From Flammeovirgaceae bacterium (GTDB lineage: Bacteria; Bacteroidota; Bacteroidia; Cytophagales; Cyclobacteriaceae), in the NCBI GenBank assembly GCA_015180985.1, contig CP054185.1, positions 2,293,225-2,357,224 of the forward strand: a DNA stretch of 64,000 nt, written 5' to 3'. Numbering within the stretch: position 1 is the first letter of the stretch; each line of letters starts with the position of its first letter. The notes under the pieces are model-generated. The model did not search any database and was not told the DNA's origin. It was given only the letters and a program-made list of their open reading frames with translations. Position numbers and translations under genes: made by a program. Shown here piece by piece: positions 62,313-64,000 of this stretch.

Positions 62313-62343
62313 TTGAACAGCTTTACTCTTTTGTATACGTTTG
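62313..62343 (+). promoter_or_regulatory. consensus Bacteroidota promoter of the candidate ncRNA
   Basis: TTG at 62313-62315, a 20-nt spacer, and TACGTTTG at 62336-62343, which matches TAnnTTTG at every fixed position. Transcription would start near 62350 on the plus strand and no protein frame follows. Confidence 0.65.
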
Positions 62344-62349
62344 GATTGA

Positions 62350-62563
62350 ATTCCCACTCGGATTTGGGACACGTTTGCTGAACCTAACAATTAAAAACAA
62401 TACCGAGTGAAGCATTCATCCAAAACCAGGCCTCATCCTGGCGGTTTCCGTCAGGACCTCGTTCTCCGGAGCAGGATAACAGTGGAAGGTTGCGGGTGCA
62501 GTGCAGCTCAAAACCTGTCTTTTATGGGGTTCAGAAACACCTCACCAAATCCGGTGGGTTTTT
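62350..62563 (+). ncRNA. candidate structured RNA of ~210 nt, 6S-like layout
   Basis: The 313-bp gap between the serA fusion and serC has no protein frame. The 5' arm CCCACTCGGATTTGG (62353-62367) pairs with CCAAATCCGGTGGG (62545-62558) in a 14-bp helix with one bulged T. Inside it, CTGAACCT (62378-62385) pairs with GGGTTCAG (62527-62534). Then comes a large AU-rich bubble (left 62386-62404, right 62510-62526) and an upper stem: GCA/TGC and CATCC/GGGTG, AACC/GGTT, and ATCCTGGC/GCAGGAT plus TCCG/CGGA toward the apex. The 3' side of the closing helix runs into TTTTTATATTT. Promoter and terminator are on the same strand. Closing stem, central bubble and terminal stem, at ~210 nt, resemble 6S RNA, but no sequence family is recognised; a local TCCTGGCGG/CCGTCAGGA hairpin and a CACTCGG/CCGAGTG pairing are alternatives. 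Confidence 0.6.
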
Positions 62564-62569
62564 ATATTT
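62541..62569 (+). terminator. terminator at the 3' end of the candidate ncRNA
   Basis: CTCACC (62541-62546) and GGTGGG (62553-62558) form a 6-bp stem with a 6-nt loop, followed by TTTTTATATTT. The same right arm also closes the long 5'-3' helix of the RNA. It meets the serA fusion gene stop at 62568. Confidence 0.65.
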
Positions 62570-64000
62570 AATAGAGCACCCTGAATTTAATCGTATGCTC
62601 AATGCCGCGTAATTCTTTAATCACCTCGGGGTCGTACTCCTTGTCAATGTCGGTAATTACGTAACCAATCAGTTCATTGGTTTTCAGGTACTGTCCTACA
62701 ATGTTAATGTTATGGTTGGCCAGCACCTGATTTATCCTGGCCAGTATGCCGGGCACATTATCATGAATGTGGATAAGGCGATGGGCATTCTCCAGTGTAG
62801 GTAATGTTAAGTTCGGGAAATTCACACTGTTTGATGTGCTGCCTGTGTTTATATAATCCTGGAATTTACCCGGCACAAAATGCCCGATGTTTTCCTGGGC
62901 TTCGAGTGTGCTGCCGCCAATATGCGGAGTGAGGATAGTATTCGGCAAACCGCGTAATTCAGAGATGAATTCTTCGTTGTTGCTAACCGGTTCGTACGGA
63001 AACACGTCAATGGCGCAACCGGCAAGTTTTCCCGATTCAATAGCTTGTTTTAGTGCGGCAATATCCACTACATGGCCGCGGCTCAGGTTGATGAATATGG
63101 CTCCTTTCTTCATCCATTCAAATTGCTGCGTTCCAAAGTAGTTTGTGTTCGATTCGCGCCCGTCAATATGCAATGACACTACATCGGCTTTCTGAAGCAG
63201 TTCTTTTAATGATTTGCATTTGGTAGCATTGCCCAGTGCCAGTTTTTCTTCAATATCATAATAGAGCACGTTCATGCCCAGCGATTCGGCCAGTACCGAA
63301 AGCTGGGTGCCAATGTTTCCGTAACCTACAATGCCTAATTTCTTTCCGCGTATTTCAAAACTTCCCTGTGCCGATTTATCCCAACTACCGCGATGCATTT
63401 TGTTCGACTTATCTACCAGGTTACGCATCAGTACTATCATTTCGGCAATAGCCAGTTCAACCACCGAGCGTGTGTTGCTGAATGGCGCATTAAATACGGC
63501 AACGCCTTTTTTGGTAGCCTCTTTCAGGTCAATCTGGTTGGTGCCGATGCAGAAAGCGCCAATGGCCATCAGGCGGTTAGCCTGCTCAAGCACCTTTTTT
63601 GTTACCTGCGTTTTTGAGCGGATGCCCAGCACACTCACATTTTTAATCCGTTTGCAAAGTTCCTCCTCCGTTAAGGCGGCCGGATACGTTTCTACATTAA
63701 AACCATCAGCTTTCAGTATCTCTACGGCAACGGGGTGAATGTTTTCGAGGAGCAGTACATTGATCCGGTTTTTCGGATAGGAGATGGCTGTGTTCAGTTT
63801 ATTCAGATAAAGAAATTCATCCAGACTGGGCGTAATGTGATCGGCTTTATCCAGAATACCGTTGCGCTCCACATTTTCAGTAAATGCATAGAATTTATTG
63901 GCCAGTCCGGCCAGTTTTATTTCGTAATCGGTATACCCATCGCCAATTACATACACATCGCCCGGCAGATTGAGGCGCTTGAGTTGTTCAACTTTTCCGT
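62568..64000 (-). CDS. serA: phosphoserine phosphatase-phosphoglycerate dehydrogenase fusion (5' partial)
   Basis: The frame is open to the window edge; 476 residues are visible. The first ~55 are the end of a HAD phosphatase: VYVIGDGYTDYEIKLA (motif IV) and NGILDKADHITPSLDEFLYL. Then a full D-3-phosphoglycerate dehydrogenase: INVLLLENIHPVAVEIL, GAFCIGTNQIDLKEATKKG, the NAD-binding KLGIVGYGNIGTQLS, INLSRGHVVD, DVFPYEPVSNNEE, TPHIGGSTLEAQENIG, and a C-terminal ACT domain (IHDNVPGILARINQVLANHN). One chain would thus carry the first (SerA) and last (SerB) steps of serine synthesis, beside the SerC-like gene. Confidence 0.93.
   Translation of the reverse strand, partial: GKVEQLKRLNLPGDVYVIGDGYTDYEIKLAGLANKFYAFTENVERNGILDKADHITPSLDEFLYLNKLNTAISYPKNRINVLLLENIHPVAVEILKADGFNVETYPAALTEEELCKRIKNVSVLGIRSKTQVTKKVLEQANRLMAIGAFCIGTNQIDLKEATKKGVAVFNAPFSNTRSVVELAIAEMIVLMRNLVDKSNKMHRGSWDKSAQGSFEIRGKKLGIVGYGNIGTQLSVLAESLGMNVLYYDIEEKLALGNATKCKSLKELLQKADVVSLHIDGRESNTNYFGTQQFEWMKKGAIFINLSRGHVVDIAALKQAIESGKLAGCAIDVFPYEPVSNNEEFISELRGLPNTILTPHIGGSTLEAQENIGHFVPGKFQDYINTGSTSNSVNFPNLTLPTLENAHRLIHIHDNVPGILARINQVLANHNINIVGQYLKTNELIGYVITDIDKEYDPEVIKELRGIEHTIKFRVLY

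Follow-up and report, generated by a model that had tools for sequence, protein, structure and literature searches.

A probable divergent 6S RNA gene between serC and serA of a Cytophagales bacterium, related to 6S-Flavo and Bacteroidales-1

The window analyzed here, a stretch of 64,000 nucleotides from a Flammeovirgaceae bacterium (contig CP054185.1, genome positions 2293225-2357224), holds serC (62254-61175) and serA (63956-62568) on the minus strand, separated by a gap of 313 bases. An RNA gene of about 215 nt (about 62349-62565) lies on the plus strand of this gap. Its promoter spans 62313-62343 and consists of TTG, a 20-nt spacer and TACGTTTG, a full match to TAnnTTTG, which a passage of PMC7366714 quotes as the -7 consensus of the Bacteroidota primary sigma factor. 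At the other end, a terminator-like hairpin (62541-62558) precedes a U tract that lies after 62558. From these signals, transcription is predicted to start at about 62349 and to stop within the U tract. An earlier note on this DNA, made from the letters alone, had read a TTG-N20-TACGTTTG promoter, a U-tract end and a gap without a protein frame. All three readings held: the promoter sequence is kept in relatives, the U tract lies where it was placed, and the gap contains short mechanical frames only. The longest plus-strand frame, of 54 codons (62407-62571), was rejected as coding, being open in 3 of 31 relatives when scored over 62407-62558. The features are listed below.

62313-62315, plus strand: -33 promoter element TTG, read directly; TTG also in relatives
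62336-62343, plus strand: -7 promoter element TACGTTTG (consensus TAnnTTTG, from a passage of PMC7366714), read directly and kept in relatives
62349-62565, plus strand: predicted 6S RNA transcript, with putative ends, from promoter, structure, U tract and conservation in relatives
62353-62367, plus strand: 5' strand of closing stem P1, from pairing and both-side changes in 19 relatives
62375-62388, plus strand: predicted template for product RNA (pRNA), copied from about 62387-62388 in the direction of the 5' end and placed by register with E. coli 6S CUGAGCCGAU via RF00013
62378-62384, plus strand: 5' strand of helix P1b, CUGAACC, from pairing and covariation; aligned to CuGAgCC of RF00013 through locus L199
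62385-62404, plus strand: 5' side of the central bubble; UAACA and AUACC invariant or nearly so
62405-62413, plus strand: 5' strand of the apical arm base; GAGU 62405-62408 pairs with GCUC 62506-62509
62428-62435, plus strand: conserved element AGGCCUCA of the apical arm; GGCCUCA identical in all 31 relatives, variants in relatives of other classes
62436-62456, plus strand: apical hairpin H1, variable in sequence; 6 of 6 counted pairs changed on both sides
62457-62475, plus strand: apical hairpin H2; 3 pairs counted, 96.7% of cells paired
62477-62489, plus strand: conserved element UAACAGUGGAAGG of the apical arm; all 31 relatives have UAACAG unchanged, and the Bacteroidales-1 locus L045 shares CAGUGGA
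62503-62509, plus strand: 3' strand of the apical arm base, GCAGCUC, from pairing counts
62510-62527, plus strand: 3' side of the central bubble, AAAACCUGUCUUUUAUGG, from the alignment of relatives
62525-62544, plus strand: alternative hairpin, the predicted release hairpin; UGGGG 62525-62529 with CCUCA 62540-62544, competing with P1b
62528-62534, plus strand: 3' strand of helix P1b, GGUUCAG, from pairing and covariation
62545-62558, plus strand: 3' strand of closing stem P1, from pairing and covariation; overlaps the terminator-like hairpin 62541-62558

The distribution of the RNA was assessed by a nucleotide search (E 1e-6 or better), which gave a match in 32 of 37 genomes of the window bacterium's own family (f1), including all 17 of its genus, and in none of 22 genomes that belong to other families within the order. 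The earlier note had staked its reading on conservation in related genomes, and the matches within f1 bear it out. Two f1 genomes without a nucleotide match still carry the RNA, one (G020) found through the 6S-Flavo model and the other (G023) through model R2, described below. Alignment A1 comprises 31 relatives, 30 of them from the nucleotide search and one from the 6S-Flavo search; the matches in G026 and G032, two genomes of the same family, are left out of the alignments. A sequence-pattern scan returned 57 stretches, among them genomes labelled Cyclobacteriaceae, Flammeovirgaceae, Cytophagales, Chryseolinea, Fulvivirga and Ohtaekwangia, and single genomes labelled Saprospiraceae, Bacteroides and Chitinophaga. 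Across the 31 relatives, the distance from closing stem to U tract is 185-216 nt, which agrees with the size of about 180-230 nt expected of 6S RNAs. In 25 of the 31, a TAnnTTTG site with at most one mismatch precedes the closing stem by 2-22 nt (8.4 expected from mononucleotide shuffles), and the exact motif precedes it in 10 (0.65 expected from the same kind of shuffle); a few relatives have their best site at a greater distance upstream than the window does. A TTG 19-21 nt upstream of a site with at most one mismatch was found in 9 of 31, against 0.54 expected.

The segment 62348-62567 folds at -84 kcal/mol, against a mean of -58.5 for 200 dinucleotide shuffles (z -5.70), none of which folds as stably; the fragment 62385-62527 by itself reached a z of only -2.31, and a 150-nt fragment of one relative only -1.04. 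P1 joins 62353-62367 to 62545-62558 through 14 pairs with U62358 bulged, exactly the closing helix drawn in the earlier note, and the nested second helix proposed there was recovered as P1b, in which CUGAACC (62378-62384) pairs with GGUUCAG (62528-62534). The AU-rich bubble of the same proposal stood in part: a central bubble is present, but it is partly paired in the window's minimum-energy fold. Compensatory change in the closing helix, suggested as a check, was found in the 19 closest relatives, on which P1 was counted as it aligns there: 6 of 14 pairs changed on both sides, with 96.2% of cells paired. For the two helices together (14 + 11 pairs), 96.8% of cells pair in these 19 relatives and 8 of 25 pairs changed on both sides. 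None of 500 shuffles, a control that ignores relatedness, reached the observed values on four of five measures, and the fifth, further pair types, was not above the shuffles (281 of 500). Sliding the partner, which accounts for relatedness but favors a structure derived from the same sequences, reduced pairing to 25-63%. A further 30 pairs, counted in all 31 relatives, formed in 93.0% of cells with 20 changed on both sides; under the same controls, no shuffle of 500 reached any of the five measures and the slid partners paired in 21-53%. The GAGU/GCUC base of the apical arm is paired in 100% of cells in the 31 relatives, one of its pairs having changed from A-U to G-C in four of them. Above it, the f1 RNA has two hairpins, one highly variable, between GGCCUCA and UAACAG, which gives a forked apical arm. 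In partition-function folding of the 31 relatives, the ends pair in all 31 and P1b in 26, and the apical arm forms well in only 17. The whole is a rod with closing stem, central bubble and apical arm, the architecture of 6S RNA. No mimic of the -7 element (TAnnTTTG) is claimed for the 3' side of the bubble, where a candidate site fits no more than 17 of 31 relatives even when any base is allowed in place of the A.

At the Rfam gathering thresholds the whole window gave no match, and hence no 6S-model threshold was passed; at E up to 10 the window gave four weak matches at chance level, none to a 6S model. Such a threshold is a property of the library and no biological trait of the RNA. The earlier note had named such a covariance search as a check, and no clear match to another known RNA emerged from it. 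The note had also seen none of the conserved boxes of RNase P RNA or tmRNA: neither has an Rfam match in the window, and both score over their cut-offs elsewhere in the genome, at 2940550-2940944 and 1636287-1636677, respectively. SRP RNA was likewise rejected, having no Rfam match in the window and scoring over the cut-off at genome positions 2163450-2163549. An all-Rfam scan of 11 f1 loci gave four matches to 6S-Flavo at 31-41 bits (E 0.003 to 0.8), all below threshold and only one with E < 0.01. One of these four loci also matched Bacteroidales-1 below threshold (28 bits), and the window's own locus matched neither family.

A covariance model, R1, was built from the 31 f1 sequences alone over window positions 62380-62533; E-values of R1, and of R2 below, come from a short calibration. 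Searched against 395 genomes of the phylum, R1 gave 29 matches, one per genome, of which 9 fell in f1 and 20 outside. The latter comprise 18 6S-Flavo loci, one Bacteroidales-1 locus, and one locus of another class (L058) without an Rfam match but with similar boxes. Eight of the 6S-Flavo loci and the Bacteroidales-1 locus score above Rfam gathering at the same coordinates as R1, and the other ten 6S-Flavo loci reach 74-84 bits, just under the gathering value of 85. In the reverse direction, 6S-Flavo gave a single match at E <= 1e-3 on 59 relatives (41.4 bits, sub-threshold), in a genome of the same family (G020), where it is flanked by serA and a diverged homologue of serC. Bacteroidales-1 gave a single match on 45 relatives (G022:C21:2165-2337, E 7e-4), which coincides with the homologue from the DNA search (G022:C21:2167-2344); this best f1 homologue under RF01693 scores 34.4 bits against a cut-off of 60. 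Since R1 matches these families outside f1 and both reverse matches fall on homologues of the RNA, we conclude from the model comparisons that the window RNA is homologous to 6S-Flavo and Bacteroidales-1.

The 6S-Flavo RNA (RF01685) shares with the f1 RNA the order of conserved blocks, the strand and the register in 18 loci. Its apical arm is short and lacks the fork; in the f1 RNA, two additional hairpins stand between AGGCCUCA and UAACAGUGGAAG. The window RNA stays below the Rfam threshold. Bacteroidales-1, or 6S-Bacteroidales (RF01693), coincides with the model matches in L045, L129, L130 and L132 at 134-184 bits. Locus L045 shares the elements GGGCCACA and CAGUGGA with the window-type RNA, although the apical hairpins differ and the window has no RF01693 match. 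Rfam labels Bacteroidales-1 '6S-Bacteroidales RNA suggested'. In the literature, a passage of PMC2864571 regards 6S-Flavo as fulfilling the 6S function, PMC7366714 reports the detection of Bacteroides 6S RNA together with RNA-seq evidence of product RNAs, and an excerpt of PMC9723704 includes 6S RNA in its list of RNAs detected in a Flavobacterium. Two side observations concern the Rfam entries: of the 49 phylum-sample genomes with a 6S-Flavo match at E 1e-3 or better, 30 fall below the family's cut-off of 85 bits, and RF01685 and RF01693, both shown without a clan, appear homologous here.

The relation to canonical 6S RNA was examined with a second model, R2, built from the 31 f1 sequences, five more from f1 and the 20 R1 matches; because R2 was partly trained on 6S-Flavo matches, only R1 tests the 6S-Flavo link independently. 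Within the order, R2 matched 58 of 291 genomes: 41 of 42 in f1, with one copy each, and 17 of 249 outside it, the remaining 232 of those 249 giving no match. Within the phylum sample it matched 76 of 395 genomes and gave no match in 319. The window scores 145.7 bits over 62380-62533 (its sequence is part of the model), and the serC-serA gap is the only locus found by R2 in the window bacterium's genome. Outside the class, 12 of the 14 R2 matches were examined and score 29.5-61.5 bits (one of them is in the model), assignments that rest on the model and shared boxes; L115 has one weak second match of 22 bits.

RF00013 itself gave nothing at E <= 1e-3 on 59 relatives, and RF00013, RF01685 and RF01693 gave nothing at E <= 1e-3 on the window bacterium's genome under the stricter filters of a large search. 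In other classes of the phylum, RF00013 matched 42 of 296 genomes, none over its cut-off of 46.4. In the best 3 of these 42 (40.8-42.3 bits), the best match of R2 falls within that of RF00013, with strand and register agreeing; with filters off, R2 scores these loci at 38.2 bits (E 2e-7), 27.3 (6e-5) and 15.8 (0.03, weak). L117 has an R2 match of 39.8 bits inside a weak RF00013 match (25 bits, E 0.17), and L122 and L128 have no RF00013 match. Through L199, CuGAgCCgA of RF00013 aligns with UGAACCGA, which in turn aligns with UGAACCUAA of the window. By this alignment we take P1b to be the equivalent of the 6S helix that adjoins the bubble on the closing side. The window RNA thus resembles 6S/SsrS (RF00013) in architecture, size and, via the intermediates L197-L199, register, which covers the bubble-side helix CuGAgCC/GGuUC and GCC...GGAAG in the apical arm. 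Direct searches found neither the window RNA with RF00013 nor E. coli 6S with R2, whose best match at the E. coli locus, with filters off, reached 5.5 bits and lay mostly upstream of ssrS. Because R2 fails to find E. coli 6S, the link to classical 6S is indirect.

Several loci in this search form observations in their own right. The matches in L117-L128, from other classes (2001 to 2132-2177), are 6S-like RNAs without annotation, and most carry variants of AGGCCUCA, CAGUGGAAG and CCCACYGUGU; Rfam, run on 9 of these 12, gave nothing over threshold and a weak RF00013 match in L117 only. Thirty-five of the 42 sub-cut-off RF00013 matches (27-42 bits) fall in one family of another class, f36 (for example L197 1501-1727), and may be genuine 6S genes that the cut-off excludes.

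Homology to accepted 6S families was found from R1 to RF01685 and RF01693, in the reverse matches and in the R2/RF00013 register, and we regard the window RNA as very probably a divergent 6S RNA gene of a Cytophagales (Cyclobacteriaceae-type) bacterium. The proposal of the earlier note, a 6S-like RNA of Cytophagales, gains support from both the 6S-Flavo/Bacteroidales-1 homology and the RF00013 register through relatives. As a working model, a stand-alone RNA of about 215 nt would be transcribed from its own primary-sigma promoter and fold into a rod that would imitate an open promoter, with closing stem (P1 and P1b), central bubble and apical arm. RNA polymerase carrying the primary sigma factor would bind the rod and thereby be held off real promoters. 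When nucleotides return, the polymerase would use the 5' side of the bubble (predicted template about 62375-62388) to make a short product RNA. This synthesis would unzip P1b, the freed G-rich strand would form the alternative hairpin, and the polymerase would be released.

The template side of this model draws on the register with E. coli. UGAACCUAACA is among the best-kept segments of the RNA in the 19 closest relatives and is in register with E. coli CUGAGCCGAU. The product-RNA start of E. coli 6S, which we take to be U44, was carried over by this register, and the start is therefore placed at about 62387-62388. The product RNAs are predicted to begin opposite this position and to run through GGUUCAGC. 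As described in a passage of PMC8876501, synthesis of the product RNA by polymerase on 6S RNAs runs from the 5' bubble into the neighboring helix, which is thereby unwound; in E. coli, according to the same passage, the freed 3' strand forms a hairpin with the 3' bubble, which makes a major contribution to release. In the window RNA, the alternative hairpin and P1b compete for one G-rich 3' strand. Over the 31 relatives, 85.8% of cells of the alternative hairpin are paired and three of its five pairs changed on both sides. Its covariation score exceeds all 500 shuffles and all slides, and two of the five covariation measures are not above the shuffles. Partition-function folding of the free RNA gave P1b in 26 of 31 relatives and the alternative hairpin in 2. 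With 14 nt of the template blocked, the alternative formed in 26 of 31, against a mean of 12.2 (range 9-16) when the partner segment was also shuffled (20 trials). Unlike the E. coli release hairpin, whose partner lies in the 3' bubble, that of the window RNA has its partner downstream of P1b.

Other readings of the RNA were weighed against this one. That it belongs to a wholly new class of structured RNA unrelated to 6S agrees with the lack of a window match over Rfam thresholds; 19 of the 20 outside-family matches of an independent model are nevertheless 6S-Flavo or Bacteroidales-1 loci, and RF00013 is bridged through intermediates, which leaves this reading with almost no probability. A trans-acting or antisense RNA that regulates by base pairing, or a cis element of serA or serC, could be imagined from the position of the RNA, which lies on the strand opposite both genes and ends against the serA stop codon. 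Within the genus, moreover, all 17 genomes have serC within 1.5 kb of the RNA, and 15 of the 17 have serA within that distance. Among all 31 relatives, serC and/or serA lies within 1.5 kb in 25 but neither does in 6, and neither does at any of the 20 R1 matches outside the family (0/20). Because its neighbors vary among relatives, the RNA is a free-standing gene; its direction, away from serC and facing the 3' end of serA, makes it the leader of neither. What is conserved, besides, is the whole rod with its covariation, and we consider such a base-pairing or cis role very improbable.

An RNA derived from, or shaped like, 6S could also bind the polymerase in another form, for example the core, without templating product RNAs. 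Ms1 of actinobacteria, described in a passage of PMC9130861 as structurally related to 6S yet binding core polymerase, offers a precedent, although it comes from another phylum and is set beside the window RNA by description. Sequence alone cannot tell which form of polymerase is bound, and the -7-like element that sigma would recognize in the bubble is loosely kept (17 of 31). Against this reading stand the preservation of UGAACCUAACA in the 19 closest relatives, its register with E. coli CUGAGCCGAU and the evidence of product RNAs in Bacteroides (an excerpt of PMC7366714); we judge it improbable, and retain a divergent 6S RNA as the preferred reading.

6S RNA is a global regulator of transcription. 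Over Rfam cut-offs, RF00013 and RF01685 each give a 6S RNA in none of 59 relatives and RF01693 in none of 45, a gap that the window RNA gene fills among the relatives searched. Titles and abstract openings on 6S RNA in Bacteroidetes, Bacteroides and Cytophaga, and on 6S-Flavo and Bacteroidales-1, contain no report of a Cytophagales 6S; Wehner 2014, cited in a passage of PMC7366714 as predicting product RNAs in Bacteroidetes, may contain candidates. Through the relatives of the window RNA, two clan-less Rfam families are joined to each other and connected with canonical 6S. Because promoters in Bacteroidota depart from the classical type, the 6S RNA of the phylum can show promoter mimicry following a changed sigma factor. 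A broader proposal, for which we hold the odds to be even, is that 6S-Flavo, Bacteroidales-1, the Cytophagales RNA and the loci of other classes form one phylum-wide 6S family, adapted to the unusual Bacteroidota primary sigma, with a forked apical arm framed by AGGCCUCA/UAACAGUGGAAG that Flavobacteria lost and, unlike in E. coli, a release-hairpin partner downstream of the unwound helix. Most relatives in other classes retain variants of the boxes, which suggests that the apical fork is old and that Flavobacteria lost it.

Two further observations concern the neighboring genes. The serC neighbor in G020 (L031 1795-2946) is a very diverged homologue, with 24% identity to the SerC of the window. 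E. coli ssrS (L032 484-666), like the window RNA, also lies close to serA, which is probably a coincidence, since the neighbors vary in relatives.
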